Assembly: GCA_030538115.1 (NCBI GenBank)
Contig: JAUNUP010000059.1
Span: forward strand, 1-10,067
Direction: 5' to 3'
DNA: 10,067 nt
Source of the DNA: Dermatophilus congolensis
GTDB lineage: Bacteria > Actinomycetota > Actinomycetes > Actinomycetales > Dermatophilaceae
Shown: positions 1 to 10,067 of the stretch, piece by piece
How the letters are laid out: each line of letters begins with the position of its first letter
How positions within the stretch are numbered: the stretch's first letter is position 1
The notes under the pieces: generated by a model
What the model was told of the DNA's origin: nothing
The model's database searches: none
The model's input: the letters and a program-made list of their open reading frames with translations, nothing else
Position numbers and translations under genes: made by a program

Positions 1-128
1 ACCGCAACAACGACGGCAACGATCGTGACGGTAATTCGCGCCGTAACCGCCGCAACCGCAATCGCAACGATCGCAATGACCGGAACGATCGCAACGAGCG
101 CCGCAACCGTCGCAGCCGCAACAACGGC
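1..128 (+). repeat. Low-complexity Arg/Asn/Asp-coding repeat in the Rho arm
   Basis: This stretch is built from degenerate CGCAAC/CGCAAT/GAC units. The octamer AACGATCG occurs three times (18-25, 66-73, 84-91). In the rho frame it encodes a run of R, N and D with a few E, S and G, containing almost no hydrophobic residue until the Pro-Asp-Val at about 129-137. It is coding sequence, not a separate element. The repeated units suggest growth and shrinkage by replication slippage, so length may vary between strains. Confidence 0.75.
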
Positions 129-1313
129 CCTGACGTGGACGACATCGAGATCACCGAGGATGACGTCCTGTTGCCCGTAGCCGGCATCCTGGACGTGCTC
201 GACAACTACGCCTTCGTGCGCACCTCGGGTTACCTCCCGGGTCCCTCGGACGTGTACGTGAGCTTGTCCCAGGTCAAGAAGAACAACCTGCGCAAGGGTG
301 ACGCCATCGTCGGCGCCATCCGCGCGCCGCGCGAGGGCGAGCAGCACAACAGCTCGCGTCAGAAGTTCTCCGCGCTCGTGCAACTGACTTCCGTCAACGG
401 CCGCAAGCCCGAAGAGAACAAGGACCGCACCGAGTTCTCCAAGCTGGTGCCGCTGTACCCGCAGGAGCGGTTGCGCCTGGAGACCGAGCCCAAGAAGATC
501 GGTCCCCGCGTGGTCGATCTGGTGGCCCCGATCGGTAAGGGCCAGCGCGGCCTGATCGTGTCCCCGCCCAAGGCCGGTAAGACCCTCATGTTGCAGGCGA
601 TCGCCAACGCGATCACCACCAACAACCCCGAGGTGCACCTCATGATGGTGCTCGTGGACGAGCGTCCCGAGGAAGTCACCGACATGCAGCGCACGGTCAA
701 GGGTGAGGTCATCGCCTCGACCTTCGACCGCCCCGCCGACGACCACACCACGGTCGCCGAGCTGGCCATCGAGCGTGCGAAGCGTCTGGTCGAGCTCGGT
801 CACGACGTGGTCGTGCTGCTCGACTCGATCACCCGCCTGGGCCGCGCTTACAACCTCGCTGCTCCGGCGAGCGGGCGCATCCTCTCCGGTGGTGTCGACT
901 CCTCGGCCCTGTACCCGCCGAAGCGGTTCTTCGGTGCGGCCCGCAACATCGAGAACGGTGGCTCGCTCACGATCCTCGCGACCGCGTTGGTCGAGACGGG
1001 TTCGAAGATGGACGAGGTCATCTTCGAGGAGTTCAAGGGCACCGGAAACATGGAGTTGCGCCTGTCGCGTCAGCTCGCCGACCGCCGCATCTTCCCCGCC
1101 GTCGACGTGAACCCCTCGGGTACGCGCCGCGAGGAGATCCTCATGAGCGGTGAAGAACTCAAGCTCATGTGGAAGCTGCGCCGGGTGCTCTCGGCTCTCG
1201 AACCGCAGGCAGCGCTGGAACTCCTTCTCGCTCAGATGAAGAAGACGAAGAGCAACACCGAGTTCTTGCTGATGGTGCAGAGGAACAGCTCGATCAAGCT
1301 TGATGACGAGTGA
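1..1313 (+). CDS. rho: Transcription termination factor Rho (5' end outside window)
   Basis: Rho is the hexameric RNA-dependent ATPase that ends transcription by translocating along nascent RNA to RNA polymerase. The frame is open from base 3 to the stop at 1311-1313, so the gene begins left of the window; the GTG at 135 is an internal Val codon. In order the product shows an Arg/Asn/Asp-rich arm (bases 3-128), an OB-fold RNA-binding domain (about 180-400; [12 protein letters not shown]), and the RecA-like motor. The motor has a Walker A (SPPKAGKT, about 561-584), a Walker B region ([16 protein letters not shown], about 809-856) and the family signatures [20 protein letters not shown] and [19 protein letters not shown]. 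The C-terminus is complete. Arms of this kind, rich in polar and charged residues, are typical of actinobacterial Rho and are known to help RNA binding. Family identity is certain; only the N-terminus is unseen. Confidence 0.98.
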
Positions 1314-1354: not shown

Positions 1355-1388
1355 AGTGAAGCGGGGTCCCCCGGGGCCCCGCTTCACT
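1355..1388 (+). terminator. Hairpin terminator after rho
   Basis: A 12-bp perfect inverted repeat, AGTGAAGCGGGG (1355-1366) with CCCCGCTTCACT (1377-1388), has a 10-nt loop that is itself G/C rich. It starts 41 bp after the rho stop. No T-tract follows, which is common for actinobacterial hairpin terminators. Its position argues that the downstream cassette needs its own promoter or read-through. Confidence 0.75.
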
Positions 1389-1450: not shown

Positions 1451-1825
1451 ATGACCGCACGTGTGCTGGTCGCAGACGACGACGAGGACATCCGTGAGCT
1501 CGTCTCGTTCAAGCTGACGCAGGCGGGCTACGACGTGGAGGCGGTCGTCGACGGCGTGAAGGCGTGGGAGGCGATCGACCAGGCGCCGCCGCAGTTGGCG
1601 CTGCTCGACATCATGATGCCTGGGCTGTCGGGTCTGGATGTGCTGCGGAAGATCCGTGAGGACGACCGGACGCGAACCGTGCCGGTCATCCTGCTCACGG
1701 CGCGCAGCCGTGACACCGATGTCGACGTGGGTTTCGAGGCCGGGGCGACGGATTACGTGATCAAGCCGTTCAGCCCGCGCGAATTGGTGCATCGGGTGGG
1801 ATCGGTTCTGGCTCGTTCGGCATGA
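1451..1825 (+). CDS. Single-domain response regulator (receiver only)
   Basis: A 124-residue CheY-like receiver that would accept a phosphate from a histidine kinase. The acidic pocket is D9-D10-D11. The phospho-acceptor is D53 (in LLDIMMPG), the switch threonine T83 (LLTAR) and the conserved lysine K105 (IKPFSP). All catalytic residues are present, so it should be active. The protein ends directly after the last receiver helix, so there is no DNA-binding or enzymatic output domain. The start is ATG 1451, chosen on ribosome-binding-site spacing. Its stop overlaps the next start (ATGA, 1822-1825), so the two are translationally coupled. The probable partner is the histidine kinase at 4378-6522 in the same operon. 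Lack of an output domain implies action by protein-protein contact, or as a relay intermediate; which partner it touches is unknown. Confidence 0.93.
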   Translation: MTARVLVADDDEDIRELVSFKLTQAGYDVEAVVDGVKAWEAIDQAPPQLALLDIMMPGLSGLDVLRKIREDDRTRTVPVILLTARSRDTDVDVGFEAGATDYVIKPFSPRELVHRVGSVLARSA

Positions 1826-2904
1826 GCCTGGAGGTGCTGGTCCTGGCGTCGCTGGTGCCGATCGCCGTGACGTGTGTGGTGCTCGTGGGGGTGACGGCGT
1901 CGGCGAAGGCGCGTCGCACCCGTCGGGAGGCGGCGAACCGCGCATTGGCCGCGCCTCACCGCCCGTTGCTGCTGGAGATCGCTGCCGACGAGGACGACGA
2001 AGGTGTGGCCTGGGAGACGCTCGCCGGGCTGGGCCCGAGGGAATGGGCCAGCCTGCGACCGAGCGTCGTGGCGATGTTGGCCAAGCTGCGCGGCGGGCCC
2101 GTGACCCGCATGGTCGCGCTGCTGGAGGCTCACGGAGACGTGGAGCGGGCCCGCGGCCGACTGACGGCACGCTCGTCGGTGCGGCGTGCGCGGGCGGCGA
2201 ATCTGCTCGGTCTCGCGAGGGACGAGCACAGTGTTCAGGCGCTCATCGCCCTCCTGGGCGATCCCGCCGCCGACGTGCGGCTCGTGGCCGTGCGGGCGCT
2301 CGGCCGCATCGGTGATCCGGCGGCGGCCGATGCCGTGCTCGCCTCCGTGCCCGGCCCTCGCGGACGCGTGGGCGTGCCGTCGTGGGTGGCGGCCGAGGCG
2401 CTGCTGGCCATGCGTCAGGGGCCTGAGCTCGAGGCTTCCGTGTGCCGGGCGCTGCTCTCCGACGAGGCCGTGGTGCGTGACGTGGGCGTCACCGTCACCG
2501 AGTACTCGAACCTCGGTGAGGCCCTCGACGTGATCCGCGAATGTCTGCACTTCGAGACCGATCTCGACATCAAGGGCGGCATGATCGAGGCGCTCGGCAG
2601 GCTGGGCGGGCAGGCCGACGTGGCGCTGATCCTCGGGTACACGGGCCGGTATGCGCCGCCCGCGTTGCGGCGCACCTGTGTTCGGGCCCTCGGTGAGATC
2701 GGCGGGCCGGAGGCGTTCGCCAGGCTCGGCGCGATGCTCACCGACAGCGACCGGGCTTCGGCCGTGCTCGCGGCCGAAGCGCTGGCTGCGGCGGGCGGCC
2801 CCGGAGCACGGGTGCTCGATGCCGCGGTCGCGCAGAGCCCCGCCGTGACGCGGGTCGTCGCGGCCGCCCTCCACAAGGCACGTCTCACCGGGGCGGGGGT
2901 CTGA
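1822..2904 (+). CDS. Membrane-anchored HEAT-repeat protein
   Basis: A 360-residue protein. Residues about 3-25 form one hydrophobic segment followed by a strongly basic stretch (about 29-40, ARRTRREAANR), giving an N-out/C-in single-pass anchor with a cytoplasmic body. The body is Ala/Leu-rich alpha solenoid. Clear HEAT/PBS-lyase-type units lie at about 119-170 (RARAANLLG, then DVRLVAVRALGRIGDP) and about 280-330 (LRRTCVRALGEIGGPEAF, then AAEALAAAGG), with more degenerate helices between. Such solenoids are usually protein-binding scaffolds, and no catalytic motif is visible. There is no convincing Shine-Dalgarno; translation probably depends on the 4-bp overlap with the response regulator. 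The gene ends 1 bp before the glycosyltransferase start. Its position suggests it connects the receiver to the synthase, but this is inference. The specific family is not recognised. Confidence 0.85.
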   Translation: MSLEVLVLASLVPIAVTCVVLVGVTASAKARRTRREAANRALAAPHRPLLLEIAADEDDEGVAWETLAGLGPREWASLRPSVVAMLAKLRGGPVTRMVALLEAHGDVERARGRLTARSSVRRARAANLLGLARDEHSVQALIALLGDPAADVRLVAVRALGRIGDPAAADAVLASVPGPRGRVGVPSWVAAEALLAMRQGPELEASVCRALLSDEAVVRDVGVTVTEYSNLGEALDVIRECLHFETDLDIKGGMIEALGRLGGQADVALILGYTGRYAPPALRRTCVRALGEIGGPEAFARLGAMLTDSDRASAVLAAEALAAAGGPGARVLDAAVAQSPAVTRVVAAALHKARLTGAGV

Positions 2905-2905
2905 C

Positions 2906-4381
2906 GTGGAGGCGCTACGCGAACCGGTCGAGGCGATCTTCGCCGTCGTGCAGACCCCGATCCTCATCTACTTCCTGCTCATCAACTCCTCGTACCTCGT
3001 CCTGATCGTGTGCGCGGCCTCGGCGTTCTTCAGCCACATGCGCCGCTCCGAGCACTCGGGGCGTGCGGAGGCCGTGACGTCGAGGCTGCTGCAGGGCGTG
3101 TCGCTGATCGTGCCGGCGTACAACGAGCGCGCGGGCATCGTCACGGCCGTGAAGTCGATGCTGTCGCTGCGGCATCCGCGCCACGAGGTCGTCGTCGTCG
3201 ACGACGGCAGCACCGACGGCACGTTCGAAGTGCTTGTCGAGGCGTTCGACCTCGTCGGCATCGATCGCGAGATCCCCAAGGACGTGCCGGTGGGCGCGGC
3301 CATCCTCGGGGTCTACGTGCCTGCCGACGGTCGCACGCGCCTCACGCTGGTGCGCAAGGAGAACTCAGGCAAGACCGAGGCAGTCAACACCGGCATCAAC
3401 GCCGCCACCGAGCCGCTCGTCGCGATCGTCGACGCCGACTCCGTGCTCGACCCCGATGCGCTGGTCAACGTGGCCGCGCCGTTCGCCGAAGACCCGGTGC
3501 GCACGATCGCGACCGGGGGAGTGATCCGCGCCGCCAACGGTTGCCGGATCGTCGAGGGGCGCGTCGTCGACATCGGTATGCCGCACTCGTGGCTGGCCCG
3601 CATCCAGGTGGTCGAGTACCTTCGCGCGTTTCTGCTCGGGCGTTCGGGCTGGTCACGGCTGCGCTGTCTCATCCTCATCAGCGGCGCGTTCGGCATGTTC
3701 CGCCGTGACGTGCTGGTCGCCATCGGCGGCCTCGATCGGGGCAGCATCGGCGAGGACTTCGAGCTGGTGATGCGCCTACACCGCGAGATGACGGCCCAGA
3801 AGCGCGACTACCGCATCGAATTCGTGGCCGAGCCGATCGTGTGGACCGAGGTGCCCACCTCCCTGAAGGTGCTGCGGGCGCAACGCCGCCGTTGGCACCG
3901 GGGGCTGTGGGAGGTGCTGTGGAAGTACCGCTCGATGGCGTTCAACCCGCGTTACGGCCGTATCGGAGTGTTCGTGCTGCCGTGGTTCTGGGCCTTCGAA
4001 CTGCTCGCGCCGGTCATCGAATTGTTCGGGTTGGTGCTGCTCGTCGCGGGGCTCGCTCTCGGCGTGGCCGACCCGGTGTACGCGGCCCTGTTCATGACCG
4101 TGGCGTACGGCTACGCCCTGCTCGTCAACCTCGCCTCGCTCGCGATCGAGGAGTTGACCTTTCACAAGTACCCCCGGTGGCGCGACCTGGGCCTGGCCGT
4201 GCTCAGTTCGGTGCTGGAGAACGTGGGATACCGGCAGCTCACGGCCCTGTGGCGCATCGAGGGTCTCATCGCCGGCATCCGTAAGAGCCGACATGTGTGG
4301 GGAACCATGACCCGCACCGGATTCGACACGGGCGAGCCGACCTCCGGCCCCCGCGGCACACACGAGGAGGCGGCCGTATGA
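2906..4381 (+). CDS. Membrane family 2 glycosyltransferase, processive synthase type
   Basis: A 491-residue inner-membrane GT2 enzyme expected to polymerise a sugar from a nucleotide-sugar donor and possibly export the chain. One N-terminal membrane segment lies at about 17-43. The cytoplasmic GT-A domain has VSLIVPAYNE (65-74), the DDGSTD nucleotide-binding motif (99-104), the metal-binding DAD (176-178), the catalytic-base motif GED (282-284) and the Q-x-x-R-W motif QRRRW (326-330). Two long hydrophobic segments follow at about 353-388 and 390-416. The set D, DxD, (E)D, QxxRW is that of cellulose, hyaluronan, chitin and poly-N-acetylglucosamine synthases (BcsA, HasA, NodC, PgaC). The polymer cannot be decided here. 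The start is GTG 2906 with GGGGG at 2895-2899, 1 bp after the HEAT gene. The stop overlaps the kinase start (ATGA). No deacetylase, PgaD-like or secretion gene is adjacent. Confidence 0.92.
   Translation: MEALREPVEAIFAVVQTPILIYFLLINSSYLVLIVCAASAFFSHMRRSEHSGRAEAVTSRLLQGVSLIVPAYNERAGIVTAVKSMLSLRHPRHEVVVVDDGSTDGTFEVLVEAFDLVGIDREIPKDVPVGAAILGVYVPADGRTRLTLVRKENSGKTEAVNTGINAATEPLVAIVDADSVLDPDALVNVAAPFAEDPVRTIATGGVIRAANGCRIVEGRVVDIGMPHSWLARIQVVEYLRAFLLGRSGWSRLRCLILISGAFGMFRRDVLVAIGGLDRGSIGEDFELVMRLHREMTAQKRDYRIEFVAEPIVWTEVPTSLKVLRAQRRRWHRGLWEVLWKYRSMAFNPRYGRIGVFVLPWFWAFELLAPVIELFGLVLLVAGLALGVADPVYAALFMTVAYGYALLVNLASLAIEELTFHKYPRWRDLGLAVLSSVLENVGYRQLTALWRIEGLIAGIRKSRHVWGTMTRTGFDTGEPTSGPRGTHEEAAV
4364..4370 (+). 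promoter_or_regulatory. Ribosome binding site deciding the histidine kinase start
   Basis: GAGGAGG, 7 nt before ATG 4378, lies inside the end of the glycosyltransferase gene. It supports 4378 as the start. The in-frame ATG at 4297 would add 27 polar residues ahead of the membrane segment and lie deep inside the upstream gene. Confidence 0.85.
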
Positions 4382-6522
4382 GGTGGTTGCGAACGTACGG
4401 TCCGGGTTCGGTGGGCCGTCGTCTGGCGGCGATGTCGTTCTCGCTGGCCGGGCTCATGTTCATCATCACGGTGGTCAGCCTGGTGGGCCTGGTCGGCCAG
4501 TCGCACCGCGTGGAGCGGCAGACGCTCGTCGTGGCCCCGGCGCTGGGCGCCAACCAGACGGTGCGCCAGACGATGGTCGAGGCCCAGAGCAGTCTGCGCG
4601 GCTACATGCTCATCGAACGCACGTCGGCGGCGGGTTTCGCGGCACCGATCCTGTTGATCGACAGCGAGGTCGAGCAGTTCGTGCGGCCGTTCGGAGTCGC
4701 GCGTGCACGCATCGGGGCAGACCTGACCCGCCTCGAACTGCTGGTGCGCGACGCCCGGTTCACGCAGGAGCCTCAGGTCCGCTCGCAGCTCGAGGCGCTC
4801 TTGACGCAGCAGCGTACGCAGACGGAGGAGTGGTGGGCGTTCGCCGACGGCGCCCGCAGCAACCCGCTCATCCCCGCCAAAGAGCTCGAGCGCGGCCGCG
4901 ACATCTTCTACGCCTTCTCGGCGACGAGCGACGAGATCACCAAGGTCATCACCGTCGAGCGCGACCAGTTGCGAGTCGACCTTCGCGAGGGCGTGAGGTG
5001 GACGGTGTGGGCCGTCGTCGCCGCCACAGCCGGCGCCGTGATGCTCGCCCTCATCGTCGGCTGGCGCACCACCGGCTCGCTCACCGGCCCGCTCATCGCG
5101 CTGCGTAACACCGTTCGTCGTCAGCATGCCGGAGACCGCACGGCGTGGGCGGACGTGCAGGCCGGGGCGACCGAGGTGCGCGATCTTGCGCAGCACGTCA
5201 ACGCCCTCACCGCGGCCCAGCACGAACTCATCGACGGGCAGGTGCACATCGTCGACCTGCAGCGGGCCGAGATCGAGGTGCTGCGTCGCATCCGTGACGC
5301 GGTCGACTTCAGGGCCGCGATGATCGTCGCGGTCGGCGGCGCCGCCAGGGCGCTGGGCGCCGACCGCGTGGTCGCGGGTGAGCTCGACGAAAACGGCGGG
5401 ATGACCGACACCGTGCTCTGGGAGGACGGCAAACCGGCAGACGAAGAACTCCCCGAGCCGTTGCGTCGTGCGATGGGGCAGATGGCGATCGCGCTCTGGG
5501 ACGGCGACCGGCGACTCGCTGTCGAAGACACCAAGCTCGCCCGGGCCTCGGGCGAGCTGGACCATCTGCCGCAGGAGCTACTCGACGTGCAACTCGACGG
5601 CGGGTTCCTGCTCATGCCGTTCGGTGTGGGCAGTCACCCCAAGGGGTCGCTGGTCGTGCGCAGCGTGCACGGGCCACGAGCGTGGACCGAGGCCGAGGTC
5701 TCGTTCGTGCACCACATCGTCGCCGAACTCGCGAACCGCGTCGTGGCCTTCGAACGCGAGGCCGACCGCACCGAGCACGTGCGCCGCCTCGAAGACCTCG
5801 ACAAGCAGAAGGACGCCTTCATGTCGACGGTCAGCCACGAGCTACGCACACCGCTCACCTCGATCACGGGCTACATCGAGATGCTCGACGACGGAGACGC
5901 GGGCGAGCTGACCGAAACACAGCGCAAGATGCTCGACGTGGTCGATCGCAACGCGCAGCGCCTGCGCGGACTCATCGAAGACCTGCTCGTGCTCAACCGA
6001 CTCGAAGCCTCGGTACAGAAGGACGAGGGCGAGGTGATCTGCGCCGGAGACCTCATCAGAGACGTGTGCGAGGAGATGATCCCGGTCGCCGCGCGCGGCG
6101 ACGTGACGGTCGTCGTCGCCGACGGCGCCTGCGGAGCGGGCACGTGGCTGCGCGGAGACAGGGCGCAACTGGGCCGGGCGCTGACGAACATCGTCTCGAA
6201 CGGCATCAAGTTCACGCCCGCCGGTGGCACGGTCACGCTCGCCTCCCGCTCCGTCGACGACGGAAAGGCTGTCGAGATCTCGTGCACCGACACGGGAATG
6301 GGCATCCCGAAGGCCGACCAGGCCAGGCTCTTCACGCGCTTCTTCCGGGCCAGCAACGCTACGAGTGCGCAGGTTCCGGGTACGGGCCTCGGCCTGGTGA
6401 TCGTGCAAGGCATCGTCGAACGTCACCGCGGGGCACTCGAACTCGACTCCACGGAGGGCGTGGGGACGACCTTCACGATGACGTTCCCCACGGCTCCGGT
6501 CCCGGCGACGCTCAGGGTGTGA
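4378..6522 (+). CDS. Sensor histidine kinase, CHASE3-like/HAMP/GAF/HisKA/HATPase
   Basis: A 714-residue transmembrane kinase. The first membrane helix is at about 17-40 and the second at about 208-228. The roughly 165-residue extracytoplasmic region between them is helical and resembles CHASE3 sensors. HAMP follows (about 229-285), then a GAF-like domain (about 305-455). The HisKA dimerisation domain has phospho-acceptor H487 in SHELRTPLTS. The HATPase domain has its N-box at about 604-612 (NIVSNGIKF), G1 DTGMGIP (638-644), the F-box around LFTRFF (651-656) and G2 GTGLGL (668-673). All kinase motifs are intact. Its start overlaps the glycosyltransferase stop by 4 bp, and it lacks an attached receiver. 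The likely phosphorylation target is therefore the receiver protein at 1451-1825. The ligand is unknown; the enzyme's product or envelope state is a plausible signal given the neighbours. Confidence 0.95.
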   Translation: MRWLRTYGPGSVGRRLAAMSFSLAGLMFIITVVSLVGLVGQSHRVERQTLVVAPALGANQTVRQTMVEAQSSLRGYMLIERTSAAGFAAPILLIDSEVEQFVRPFGVARARIGADLTRLELLVRDARFTQEPQVRSQLEALLTQQRTQTEEWWAFADGARSNPLIPAKELERGRDIFYAFSATSDEITKVITVERDQLRVDLREGVRWTVWAVVAATAGAVMLALIVGWRTTGSLTGPLIALRNTVRRQHAGDRTAWADVQAGATEVRDLAQHVNALTAAQHELIDGQVHIVDLQRAEIEVLRRIRDAVDFRAAMIVAVGGAARALGADRVVAGELDENGGMTDTVLWEDGKPADEELPEPLRRAMGQMAIALWDGDRRLAVEDTKLARASGELDHLPQELLDVQLDGGFLLMPFGVGSHPKGSLVVRSVHGPRAWTEAEVSFVHHIVAELANRVVAFEREADRTEHVRRLEDLDKQKDAFMSTVSHELRTPLTSITGYIEMLDDGDAGELTETQRKMLDVVDRNAQRLRGLIEDLLVLNRLEASVQKDEGEVICAGDLIRDVCEEMIPVAARGDVTVVVADGACGAGTWLRGDRAQLGRALTNIVSNGIKFTPAGGTVTLASRSVDDGKAVEISCTDTGMGIPKADQARLFTRFFRASNATSAQVPGTGLGLVIVQGIVERHRGALELDSTEGVGTTFTMTFPTAPVPATLRV

Positions 6523-6611
6523 GCGTCGCCCACGCACCGCCCCTGGTGGCGGGGCCGATGTTGCTACGCTGAGAAGCCAATTCGTCGGGTGGGGCAGGGG
6601 AAGGAGCCGGC
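6523..6611 (+). promoter_or_regulatory. Intergenic spacer with possible promoter
   Basis: This is the only real gap inside the cassette (89 bp). TACGCT at 6565-6570 fits the TAnnnT pattern of actinobacterial -10 boxes, with a weak CTGGTG (6543-6548) 16 bp upstream. AAGGAG (6601-6606) then lies 5 nt before the next ATG. No strong terminator hairpin is seen, so read-through from the kinase remains possible. Confidence 0.35.
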
Positions 6612-7994
6612 ATGGCCGGTCCGGGCACATCGATGTCGGTACGAACACGTCTCGCCCTGTTCACCGCCCTGCTCGTGGCGTTGATGCTGGCACTGGGCGC
6701 GATCGCCGTGGTCGGCGATCAGGCGGCGGCCGATCGTGTCAGGTTGCAGTCACGCAACCTGTCGCCCACCCTGCAGGCGAATGCCGAGTTGCAGTCGCAG
6801 TTGCGCCGGGCCGAGAGCTCGGTGGCGAACTACCTGCTCTTCCGTCATGCGTTGCAGGGGGCGGCGGGTGAACCCGAGTCGGAGGCGCAGATCCTCGAGC
6901 CGGCACGGGTCGCGATCCGCAGCATGCCGGGCGATCTGGAGTCGATCGACCATTTCATCACCTCACCGCCTTTCGACGACGTCGCGCTCGTCGGTGATTT
7001 GAGCGACCGGGTCCGCTCGCAGCGTGCCTCGATGACGGCCTGGCGCGAATGGGCGATGGGCGTGGTGCCCGCCTCCGGAGACGAGCAGAGGCCTCTGCCG
7101 TCGACGGCAGAGGTGCGGCGGGGCGAGTCGCTCTTCCAGGCGGCGATCAGCGACAGTTCGAGCGTGCAGGCCGGCTTGGCCGCCGCGAATGCCGGTGTGC
7201 GGCAAGAGGTTCTCGACAGACTCGATCGCGCCCGCCTGCTGCTCGTCATCGCGACGGTCGTGGCGGTTCTGCTCGCCCTGTTCGTGGCGTGGCGCACGAC
7301 GAAGCGGCTGGTCGGACCCATCAGCAAGCTTGACGACACCCTGCGCCGCCAGGTCGCCGGCGAGCGGTCGGCGTGGGCCGACACCGAAACCGGTGCCCGC
7401 GAGATCCGCGAACTGGCCGAGAGCGTCAACGTGCTCAACCGCGAACACCTGCGCCTGGTCGATCGGCAGGCTCAGTCACTCGCGCTGCTGCGCGCCGGCA
7501 ACGACGTCGTCGCCACCCTCGCCCGCGTGAACGACACGCAAGAGGCCGTCGACCTGGTCATCGACACGATCGGCCGCACCCTCGGTCTCGACACCACCCG
7601 CATCGCGGGGTGGGCCGCGACAGGGCAGCCGTTCGCAGCCGTGTGGTCGCGCGACAAGTCCGCCCACGTGTCCGTGCCCGAGACATGGTGGGGTTCGCCG
7701 GGAGTGGGGGCGCCCCTCCTCCCCGCCGGAGACCTCATCACCGTCGGCGCTCGCACGCCGGCCGGTCTGCGCGAACACGTCGAGCAACCGCCTGAGTGGG
7801 TGCGTGAAGACCCGGTGGTGGCCCGCTCCGCATCGTCGTTGTACCTGCCCATCGCGGTCGGCAGCACGGTCAGCGGGTTGCTGTCGGTGCACTCGGCTTC
7901 CGAAGTGCGTTCATGGGACGAACCCGAGATCGCGTACCTGCAGCGGGTCACCCGCGAACTCGCGCGTTTGTCGACCGGGCACCGCGACGCCTGA
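6612..7994 (+). CDS. Kinase-less CHASE3-like/HAMP/GAF membrane sensor, paralogue of the upstream kinase
   Basis: A 460-residue protein with membrane helices at about 13-35 and 207-227. An extracytoplasmic helical region of about 170 residues lies between them. HAMP follows (about 227-280), then a GAF-like domain (about 295-455). It ends there, with no HisKA, HATPase or other output domain. It is clearly related to the kinase upstream: both have WRTT just after helix 2, then GP, RRQ, AG, AWAD, GA, LA and VN at matching spacing through HAMP. Their GAF domains also match in layout (LPIAVGSTVSGLLSVHS here, LMPFGVGSHPKGSLVVRS there). The stop falls at about the point where the kinase continues into HisKA. 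AAGGAG 5 nt upstream supports ATG 6612 over Met8. It may form mixed HAMP/GAF dimers with the kinase or act as a signal sink; both are inference. It could also be a decayed kinase, but no kinase remnant is visible downstream. Confidence 0.85.
   Translation: MAGPGTSMSVRTRLALFTALLVALMLALGAIAVVGDQAAADRVRLQSRNLSPTLQANAELQSQLRRAESSVANYLLFRHALQGAAGEPESEAQILEPARVAIRSMPGDLESIDHFITSPPFDDVALVGDLSDRVRSQRASMTAWREWAMGVVPASGDEQRPLPSTAEVRRGESLFQAAISDSSSVQAGLAAANAGVRQEVLDRLDRARLLLVIATVVAVLLALFVAWRTTKRLVGPISKLDDTLRRQVAGERSAWADTETGAREIRELAESVNVLNREHLRLVDRQAQSLALLRAGNDVVATLARVNDTQEAVDLVIDTIGRTLGLDTTRIAGWAATGQPFAAVWSRDKSAHVSVPETWWGSPGVGAPLLPAGDLITVGARTPAGLREHVEQPPEWVREDPVVARSASSLYLPIAVGSTVSGLLSVHSASEVRSWDEPEIAYLQRVTRELARLSTGHRDA
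7085..7113. repeat. Overlapping perfect palindromes inside the kinase-less sensor gene
   Basis: GCAGAGGCCTCTGC (7085-7098) is a perfect 14-bp palindrome. It shares its right half with a perfect 22-bp palindrome at 7092-7113 whose left arm is CCTCTGCCGTC. The heptamer GCAGAGG or its complement thus occurs three times in 29 bp. It lies in the coding region for the extracytoplasmic domain (about residues 158-168), close to the second membrane helix. Confidence 0.7.
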
Positions 7995-8110: not shown

Positions 8111-8326
8111 ATGCGTAAGGACATCCACCCCAGGTACGAGGAGACGACTGTCACCTGCACCTGCGGCAACCAGTTCACCACCCGCAGCACCGCGAAGAAC
8201 GGCAGCATCCAGGCCGACGTGTGCGCGAAGTGTCACCCGTTCTACACGGGCAAGCAGAAGATCCTCGACACCGGTGGTCGCGTGGCCCGCTTCCAGGCCC
8301 GCTACGGCAAGAAGGTCGCCAAGTAG
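8111..8326 (+). CDS. rpmE: 50S ribosomal protein L31, zinc-binding form
   Basis: A 71-residue bacterial L31, a peripheral large-subunit protein that bridges toward the small subunit. It starts [11 protein letters not shown] and contains C16-x-C18 and C38-x-x-C41, the four-cysteine zinc site of the C+ form. It also has the family signature [17 protein letters not shown] and a basic C-terminus. Length is normal. In actinobacteria the C+ form is typically the zinc-replete version, with a cysteine-free paralogue made under zinc shortage elsewhere in the genome. A hairpin terminator follows directly, and the gene has its own ribosome binding site. Its usual neighbour upstream is rho, here displaced by the five-gene cassette. 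Confidence 0.98.
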
Positions 8327-8415: not shown

Positions 8416-9507
8416 ATGGACGTCGAGCCTCTGCTCAGCGCGGCGCGGCCGCAGGTGAGCGAGTACGCCGAGCTGGAGAAGGCGATGGCCGACCCCGAGG
8501 TGATCGGCGACGCCACCCGGTTCCGCACCACCACCAAGCGCTACGCGGCGCTGGGTCCGGTCGTGGCGTGCTCGCGCGAGGTGGAGCGGTTGCTCGGCGA
8601 TCTCGAGGCGGCGCGTGAGCTGGCGGCCGAGGACGAGGCATTCGCCGCCGAGGTGCCGGCCCTCGAGGAGGAGCTGGAGACGCAGACGGCCAAGCTGCAC
8701 CGGCTGCTTCTCCCGCGTGACCCCGACGACGACCGCGACGTGATTCTCGAGGTCAAGGCGGGGGAGGGCGGCGAGGAGTCGGCCCTGTTCGCGGGCGACC
8801 TCGTGCGCATGTACATGCGCTACGCCGAGCGTCGGGAGTGGAGCACTCAGGTGCTCGACGCCACCGAATCCGACCTCGGTGGGTACAAGGACATCCGTAT
8901 CGCGGTGAAGGCGAAGGGAACTCCCGAGCCGGGCGAGGCCCCGTGGGCGCGGCTGAAGTACGAGGGCGGGGTACACCGCGTGCAGCGGGTGCCCGTCACC
9001 GAGAGCCAGGGCCGCATCCACACCTCCGCGGCAGGCGTGCTCGTGATGCCGGAGGTCGAGAGCGACGACGAGATCGAACTCGTACCCGCCGATCTGCGCA
9101 TCGACGTGTACCGCTCGTCGGGCCCCGGAGGCCAGAGCGTCAACACGACCGACTCGGCGGTGCGGATCACGCACGTGCCCACCGGCATCGTCGTCTCGTG
9201 CCAGAACGAGAAATCGCAACTGCAGAACAAGGAGTCGGCGATGCGCGTGCTGCGCGCGCGGCTCCTGCAGGCCCAGCGAGACGCTGCCGAGGCCGAGGCT
9301 GCCGAAGCACGGCGCAGCCAGGTGCGCACGGTCGACCGCAGCGAGCGCATCCGTACGTACAACTTTCCCGAGAACCGCATCGCCGACCACCGCACGGGCT
9401 TCAAGGCCTATTCGCTCGACTCGGTGCTCGACGGTGACCTCGACGGCGTGATCGGCTCTGCGCTCGACGCCGACGAGAAGGCCAAGATGGCCGCGGCCGG
9501 GGCGTGA
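8416..9507 (+). CDS. prfA: Peptide chain release factor 1
   Basis: RF1 (363 residues, normal length) recognises UAA and UAG in the ribosomal A site and triggers release of the finished protein. The codon-reading tripeptide is P193-V-T195 in [14 protein letters not shown]. The P-x-T form marks RF1, since RF2 carries SPF. The catalytic GGQ is at 238-240 in [18 protein letters not shown], where the glutamine is the residue methylated by PrmC. The N-terminal helical domain is at about 1-105, and the C-terminal part carries [16 protein letters not shown]. The start ATG 8416 follows GGGAG. The methyltransferase gene prmC begins 4 bp downstream, so the enzyme and its substrate are co-expressed. Confidence 0.98.
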
Positions 9508-9511
9508 GGGC

Positions 9512-10067
9512 GTGAGCTCGGCCAGCACCTCAGACGGCGTCGAGACCGACAAGACCGTTGATGTCTTGGTGCGCGAGGCGACCGCCGTGCTGTCGACGGC
9601 CGGCGTGCCCAGCCCGCGGCGCGACGCGGTGTTGCTGCTGGCCCACAGTCTCGGTGTCGACGCCGGGGAGGCCGAGAAGGCCGCGCTGATGCGCCGCATG
9701 CCAACGCACGACCAGCGTGAGCGCTTCGCGACGTTGCTGGCGGAGCGTCGCAACCGGGTGCCGTTGCAGCACCTCACCGGGCGGGCGCCGTTCAGGCATC
9801 TCGAACTCGACGTCGGCCCTGGGGTGTTCGTGCCTCGCCCCGAGACCGAGGCAGTCGCGGGAGTCGTGGGGGGCCACCGCACGGCGGGCGCGACCCCGGG
9901 CGGGGCCCGGCGGCCGCGCGGGGGCCGGGGGGGGGGGGGGCGGGAGACGCCTGAGGCTCAGGGCTCCCAGCCCGGCAGCGCCCCGAGCCGCACCCACCCT
10001 CGGACACGCGGGGCCCCAGCCGACCACGGCCAGTCGGGCGTTGCCGCTCGGGTCGTCCCAGACCGCG
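9512..10067 (+). CDS. prmC: Release factor glutamine methyltransferase, N-terminal part (3' end unreliable)
   Basis: PrmC methylates the GGQ glutamine of RF1 and RF2 using S-adenosylmethionine. The frame from GTG 9512 gives a helical N-terminal domain with the PrmC pattern: SPRRDAVLLLAHSLG (about 34-48), then VPLQHLTGRAPF (83-94), then VGPGVFVPRPETE (101-113). The expected continuation, a Rossmann-type SAM-binding domain with D-x-GTGSG and then NPPY, never appears. From about residue 117 (base 9860) the translation becomes Gly/Arg/Pro-rich with no family resemblance, passing through a G14 run. The frame stays open to the right edge by chance or because of GC bias. GTG 9512 is 4 bp after prfA but has a poor Shine-Dalgarno; TTG 9566 or GTG 9569 are alternatives. 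The identity of the first 115 residues is secure. Confidence 0.85.
   Translation, partial: MSSASTSDGVETDKTVDVLVREATAVLSTAGVPSPRRDAVLLLAHSLGVDAGEAEKAALMRRMPTHDQRERFATLLAERRNRVPLQHLTGRAPFRHLELDVGPGVFVPRPETEAVAGVVGGHRTAGATPGGARRPRGGRGGGGRETPEAQGSQPGSAPSRTHPRTRGAPADHGQSGVAARVVPDR
9861..10067. other. Suspect sequence at the right edge, including a G14 run
   Basis: The PrmC protein match stops at about 9860. Beyond it lie dense G/C homopolymers, a run of 14 G at 9927-9940, and no recognisable coding sequence on either strand. A long G run is a known artefact of two-colour sequencing, and this pattern fits a poorly supported contig end. A real rearrangement inside prmC is the alternative, but loss of a near-essential gene makes it less likely. 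Confidence 0.6.

Follow-up and report, generated by a model that had tools for sequence, protein, structure and literature searches.

The stretch considered here comprises 10,067 nucleotides of contig JAUNUP010000059.1 from a Dermatophilus congolensis assembly (GCA_030538115.1) and is called the window below. It raises the question of what joins the five same-strand genes lying between rho and rpmE, which encode a receiver-only response regulator (RR), a HEAT-repeat protein, a membrane glycosyltransferase of family 2 (GT2; GT in the following text), a membrane sensor histidine kinase (HK) and a kinase-less sensor protein. The initial annotation took them for a self-contained module in which a phosphorelay controls a polysaccharide synthase. 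The presence of five genes on one strand, the first four joined by overlaps or a 1-bp gap, was borne out by the open reading frames, the Pfam matches and the junctions. The idea of a five-gene unit, however, did not hold: the conserved core consists of the receiver, HEAT and GT genes together with an exchangeable kinase, and the fifth gene occurs in few relatives, standing alone in two intervals. The anatomy of the proteins and their co-occurrence suggest phosphorelay control of a polysaccharide synthase. Probably, this is a two-component system with an enzyme, not transcription, as its output, in which the phosphorylated receiver and the HEAT protein would gate the GT2.

The loci used for comparison were retrieved with the GT only, as the best 80 of at least 589 matched stretches (at least 569 of them confirmed, in a scan of 84,980 species genomes) and 60 more. 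After the removal of identical GTs 119 loci were left, 106 of which extended more than 2.5 kb upstream of the GT. The HEAT gene was situated directly upstream of the GT gene in all 106 loci. The receiver occupied its standard upstream position in 96 of them; counting either strand up to 4.5 kb away, 105 loci had a receiver (the exception is L061) and 90 an HK match. It had been proposed beforehand that conserved sets at different loci would support a modular system and that genes scattered in relatives would speak against it; such sets recur at different loci across Actinomycetota, and no scattering was seen. As the HEAT profile behind the 106 of 106 count was iterated on the same loci, a separate profile (A2), built from a whole-database search by sequence, was applied to genomes with and without the GT. 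In the family of query genome G001, all 42 genomes with the GT had HEAT at E ≤ 1e-70, as against 1 of the 107 GT-negative ones (5 at E ≤ 1e-15); in the class, all 12 genomes with the GT had it at E ≤ 1e-20, as against 2 of the 204 GT-negative ones (3 at E ≤ 1e-15). Receiver, HEAT and GT occur together far more often than by chance (Fisher test). The family exception at E ≤ 1e-70 is G346, whose HEAT lies near rho on contig C60 and whose rpmE is on a different contig; a contig break is likely. Possible 4-bp start/stop overlaps were counted, with starts assigned by position and without chance control, in 51 of 99 RR-HEAT, 75 of 113 HEAT-GT and 61 of 78 GT-HK pairs, and none of these 99, 113 and 78 pairs was fused into a single gene. 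Moreover, the distances of RR, HEAT and GT correlated beyond rho (partial correlation 0.54–0.61 at 45 rho-site loci; raw values 0.63–0.78 at 96 loci). The receiver was moved or inverted in some loci (L069, L071, L075 and L078).

The receiver has kept its phosphorylation residues. In an alignment of 101 receivers, restricted to those in standard position, D53, K105 and D10 were retained in all sequences, position 83 was T or S in all, and position 9 was D in 84 and E in 17. Related receivers end no more than 5 residues past the domain in 99 of 100 cases, the exception (L009) continuing for 43 more, and no DNA-binding output domain of the OmpR/PhoB type was found by Pfam in the window receiver. 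A phosphorylatable receiver without an output domain is expected to work through protein contact, and many single-domain receivers have no known target; the linkage described above suggests a target for such a receiver. The phospho-acceptor His and ATPase domain of the HK, along with the receiver Asp and Lys, would provide the elements of a two-component system, as judged from sequence. Directly upstream of the receiver-HEAT-GT core, L042, L051 and L135 carry a second, divergent receiver gene, and the relay is perhaps longer in those lineages.

The model of the HEAT protein (pLDDT 96) consists of a long N-terminal helix (residues 3–54) with an apolar start, followed by a HEAT solenoid. The closest fold is that of designed alphaRep binding scaffolds, and there is likeness in fold and in weak family matches to HEAT-like and alphaRep solenoids as well as to the phycobilisome HEAT proteins CpcE and NblB. 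The window protein differs from alphaRep, CpcE and NblB in the long N-terminal helix and in its fixed partnership with a receiver and a GT. Because of its apolar start, the helix is proposed to be a membrane anchor, and the protein is proposed to act as a scaffold or adaptor.

The GT motifs D100, D176-A-D178, E283-D284 and Q326RRRW330 were invariant in 48 rows. The model of the enzyme (pLDDT 89) has long helices on both sides of the catalytic domain, and Foldseek matched it best to hyaluronan synthases, then to chitin and cellulose synthases. The QRRRW, D, DxD and ED motifs and the channel-synthase fold are features of processive synthases; having D, DxD, ED and QxxRW along with flanking membrane helices, the enzyme is predicted to be a processive GT2 synthase. 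It reaches no NCBIfam cut-off, the best match being PgaC/IcaA (TIGR03937) with 124.1 bits versus the 422.3 needed (E 6.7e-36), and an identification as PgaC/IcaA was therefore rejected by this equivalog cut-off. The Pfam matches of the GT at E ≤ 1e-3 include no PilZ domain, so that it does not qualify as a PilZ-controlled synthase. The nearest named relative is the GT of Agilicoccus flavus (Dermatophilaceae), which is 73–76% identical, and two database proteins are closer (88% and 86%). The neighbours of copies outside the rho site were surveyed as the 4 nearest proteins of each of 34 chosen loci, with 131 of 132 scanned and one very long protein omitted. Among the 25 of 186 families listed, HATPase_c was found in 7, receivers in 6 and GT2 in 2, additional kinases and receivers being the most recurrent, and no sugar family was met more than twice; a single-membrane synthase that does not need an export partner would suit such neighbour content. 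In L085 an additional GT2-like gene is found at 3963–5126, counted downstream from the start of the GT match, and the distance between HK and rpmE is longer by about 4.5 kb.

In the kinase, H487 is present in 78 of 79 aligned rows, the remaining one having a gap. The CHASE3, HAMP and GAF labels given in the initial annotation apply to the relatives: in an alignment of 32 members (both window proteins, 4 fifth-gene relatives and 26 of 56 suitable HKs), these domains matched at E ≤ 0.01 in 17, 12 and 25, respectively. The window's own HK and fifth protein remained below the Pfam thresholds for all three, CHASE3 appearing only at E 2.2, for the HK. The fifth protein, in which no H-box was found, is 30% identical to the sensor half of the HK over 458 alignment positions (E 9e-49). 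At least 6 other proteins in the database match it above threshold, including one that is probably a chimera. With an open frame, the fifth gene stands alone in two fetched rho-rpmE intervals, L147 (314–1645) and L162 (271–1608). Its distribution is narrow, and it is not part of the conserved unit. In L147 and L162 the fifth gene is 43% identical to that of the window and the rho piece 92% identical; none of the other four genes (receiver, HEAT, GT and HK) lies in the interval. P0247 has an ATPase domain and shares 72% identity over 35% with the fifth protein. It was considered as a full-kinase ancestor of this gene but not used, because it looks like a junction of both paralogues on a 1160-bp contig.

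As to the phosphorylation and binding partners, the sign of control, the polymer made and the role of the fifth gene, the following course is what we infer. The membrane kinase would sense a cue and phosphorylate D53 of the receiver. The phosphorylated receiver would then bind a partner, most likely the membrane-anchored HEAT solenoid, since a receiver-HEAT-GT chain is suggested by the order in which the genes usually stand, by their tight linkage and by the constant presence of HEAT beside the GT in the 106 loci. The HEAT protein, bound or recruited to the adjoining GT2, may position or open it, and the complex of both would thus gate the enzyme post-translationally. The GT2 is expected to polymerise a sugar from a nucleotide donor and to thread the polymer through its own membrane channel. 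In this arrangement, HEAT may correspond in function to the PilZ domains or small partners of c-di-GMP-controlled synthases. The fifth protein may, as a guess, tune the kinase by forming a hetero-dimer through the shared sensor half.

Several observations weigh against such a scheme. At the rho-rpmE site of L151 and L161, receiver and HK occur with open frames and without HEAT-GT, as they do in L180, where the HK frame has stops; in the receiver-HK-only genomes (G225, G268 and G276) HEAT was absent at E ≤ 1e-10 and the GT was absent too. The receiver may therefore act, or once have acted, with a different partner. The kinase does not accompany every core either. No HK match lies within 4.5 kb, on either strand, in 16 of the 106 loci, and some of the 90 counted HKs are on the opposite strand. 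In five Nocardioidaceae rho-site loci (L066, L127, L130, L131 and L133) only 78–225 bp separate the GT and rpmE matches. In a sixth such locus, L073, this distance is 1391 bp and contains no HK match, and eight loci elsewhere lack an HK despite room on both sides. Since it is absent next to some intact cores, the kinase has to be regarded as an interchangeable part; a local kinase is usual, not obligatory. The mirror-tree signal is modest, with a contribution from shared inheritance, and the best synthase matches in Foldseek have moderate TM-scores (0.46–0.60 in the top 13 rows).

The persistence of receiver-HK pairs in L151 and L161, like the second receiver just upstream in L042, L051 and L135, would be understandable if HEAT and GT formed an enzyme complex on which the receiver and HK acted indirectly, as a phosphate sink or as a relay to a distant transcriptional response regulator. 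A receiver is, however, found within 4.5 kb of the GT in all but one of the 106 loci, and each of the 16 that lack an HK match within that distance has one, which fits a partner in HEAT-GT better than a partner in the kinase only. We consider such indirect control unlikely. An operon of convenience, in which the genes are co-transcribed without a physical relay and the receiver and HK act elsewhere, is still more doubtful. The tight junctions alone suggest only co-translation and would agree with it, but the core stays linked at many different loci in Actinomycetes, Acidimicrobiia, Thermoleophilia, Rubrobacter and two metagenome-assembled genomes labelled Bacillota and Bacteroidota, the receiver having been moved or inverted in some, and selection for linkage explains this pattern better than inertia does. 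The post-translational gating of the GT2 by receiver and HEAT could also concern a different reaction, with the enzyme controlled likewise but performing single transfers, for example in the decoration of a cell-wall glycan or a lipid. The failure to reach any NCBIfam cut-off and the lack of a recurrent sugar family among the listed neighbours are in line with this alternative. It is nevertheless improbable in view of the motifs invariant in 48 rows and the channel-synthase fold, both of which argue for a processive synthase.

Among known enzymes, PgaC has a GT2 domain flanked by membrane helices, and PgaD and IcaD are partners of PgaC and IcaA. The window GT shares the GT2 domain and flanking helices with PgaC/IcaA, its best NCBIfam match, but it reaches only 124 of 422 bits, and its neighbours are HEAT and a receiver. 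With hyaluronan, cellulose (BcsA) and chitin synthases it shares a membrane-embedded processive fold, as predicted by the model, and it differs from them by the low identity of 12–17% in the 3D alignments listed and by the lack of a PilZ match in Pfam. The closest parallel in regulation is EpsW-EpsZ of Myxococcus xanthus, where polysaccharide synthesis is switched on post-translationally by a phosphorylated single-domain response regulator that acts on a membrane sugar transferase; wider occurrence of the mechanism is proposed by the authors, who also name c-di-GMP as frequently involved in the post-translational control of synthase-dependent polysaccharides (PMC12802240). The bare single-domain receiver is common to both systems. 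EpsZ belongs to a Wzx/Wzy pathway as a large monotopic phosphoglycosyl transferase, whereas the cassette enzyme is a GT2; the contact of EpsW is proposed to be direct and its input is the Dif chemosensory system, whereas the cassette has a HEAT protein of its own and a histidine kinase gene next to it. A bare receiver that switches a sugar enzyme is thus already known, and the cassette differs in the enzyme class, the HEAT protein and the neighbouring kinase. No description of the receiver-HEAT-GT set was found in the literature searched, which leaves out most subscription papers; PMC12419801 proved to be unrelated. The chances appear even that the cassette represents a widespread, undescribed form of control, that is, phosphorelay-gated processive synthases with a phosphorylated receiver and a membrane HEAT adaptor taking the place of c-di-GMP as allosteric switch, in a portable cassette with interchangeable kinases. 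If so, polysaccharide synthases would have another switch, wired directly to a sensor kinase, and this control would be patchy but broad in Actinomycetota, judging from the confirmed stretches. The cassette is, in addition, a small, portable and testable list of parts.

At E ≤ 1e-40 the GT was found in at least 12 of 216 genomes of the class, at least 42 of 149 in the G001 family and at least 14 of 120 in the family of G002 (Nocardioides); the queries themselves are part of these sets, G001 and G005 of the class set and G001 and G002 each of the set for its own family. The loci span Micrococcales, Micromonosporaceae, Streptosporangiaceae, Pseudonocardiaceae, Kineosporiaceae, Streptomyces, Acidimicrobiia, Thermoleophilia and Rubrobacter. 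The core is also carried by one metagenome-assembled genome each labelled Bacillota and Bacteroidota. In the 42 carriers of the G001 family, the module lies between rho and rpmE with both flanks seen in 37, with one flank at a contig end in 2, and elsewhere in 3. The rho-rpmE location is thus long-standing in this family and not a singular insertion. The surveys of family and class, together with the GT tree, led to the rejection of a recent or unique insertion; the earlier argument from even base composition against very recent transfer agrees with the tree and with the wide presence at rho-rpmE. The notion that the module was simply gained at, or assembled into, the locus proved too simple, as far-apart GT clades share the site and the interval is variable.

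Nocardioidaceae also carry the module at rho-rpmE, in a far-off GT clade. A single clade for all rho-site GTs was rejected (p-AU 2.3e-7) in a quick LG tree of 73 of 118 rows, the other 45, mostly near-duplicates and a few long branches, having been removed by hand beforehand. This rejection fits an ancestral position with later relocations as well as repeated arrival. Loci outside the rho site in Cryobacterium, Kocuria, Desertimonas and Actinophytocola, with receiver, HEAT, GT and HK all present, group among the rho-site GTs, some of the forks that place them being weakly supported. Whole-block transfer would yield nested loci of this kind.

The rho-rpmE gap was counted in 139 of the 149 G001-family genomes, the other 10 being split over contigs or incomplete. 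In the 100 genomes without the GT it measured less than 600 bp in 23, 600–2500 bp in 46 and 2500–8000 bp in 29, and the two genes were far apart in 2. The interval itself is therefore variable, since 75 of the 100 module-free genomes hold 0.6–8 kb there. Comparison of 60 of these 100 intervals with the window proteins showed no relative in 53. Besides the receiver-HK pairs and the two solitary copies of the fifth gene mentioned above, a lone receiver (47%) was found in L166 and a distant receiver/HK pair in L154, and the site thus shows partial losses or partial sets. Several of the 20 intervals put through a gene caller contain long genes on the strand opposite rpmE.

The order of genes in the window, established by open reading frames and family searches, is given in Table 1. 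RR and HEAT overlap by 4 bp, HEAT and GT are separated by a 1-bp gap, GT and HK overlap by 4 bp, and an 89-bp gap precedes the fifth gene. A codon-usage gene caller recovered the same genes, with a few starts chosen differently.

Table 1. Features of the window in order of position.
Feature	Position	Strand	Basis and remarks
rho, left flank	3..1313	+	5' end outside window; Pfam Rho_RNA_bind 88 bits, ATP-synt_ab 89 bits
Perfect 15-bp stem with 4-nt loop, between rho and cassette	1355..1388	+	Folding of 1314-1450
Receiver-only response regulator, 124 aa	1451..1825	+	Pfam Response_reg 102 bits; D53, K105
HEAT-repeat protein, 360 residues	1822..2904	+	Pfam HEAT_2 67 bits; predicted membrane anchor
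Processive-type membrane GT2, 491 residues	2906..4381	+	Pfam Glyco_tranf_2_3 96 bits; motifs
Membrane sensor histidine kinase (HK), 714 residues	4378..6522	+	Pfam HisKA, HATPase_c; H487 phospho-acceptor position
Fifth gene, kinase-less sensor paralogue, 460 residues	6612..7994	+	Similarity to HK sensor half
rpmE (L31), right flank	8111..8326	+	Pfam
prfA (RF1), right flank	8416..9507	+	Family searches
prmC, start	from 9512	+	Family searches

The family match of prmC stops at about residue 116, where the DNA has a run of 14 G (window 9880–10067), and the final ~190 bases of the window appear to be poor sequence at a contig end and not a biological feature. Scans for sigma-70 promoters and T-run terminators gave no result beyond chance. 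The hairpin between rho and the cassette is more stable than expected (z −3.0; equally stable in 2 of 200 shuffles); no T-run follows it, and the T-run terminator scan does not report it. Terminators without a T-run have been proposed for actinobacteria, and this hairpin, possibly of such a kind, is a candidate boundary between rho and the cassette.

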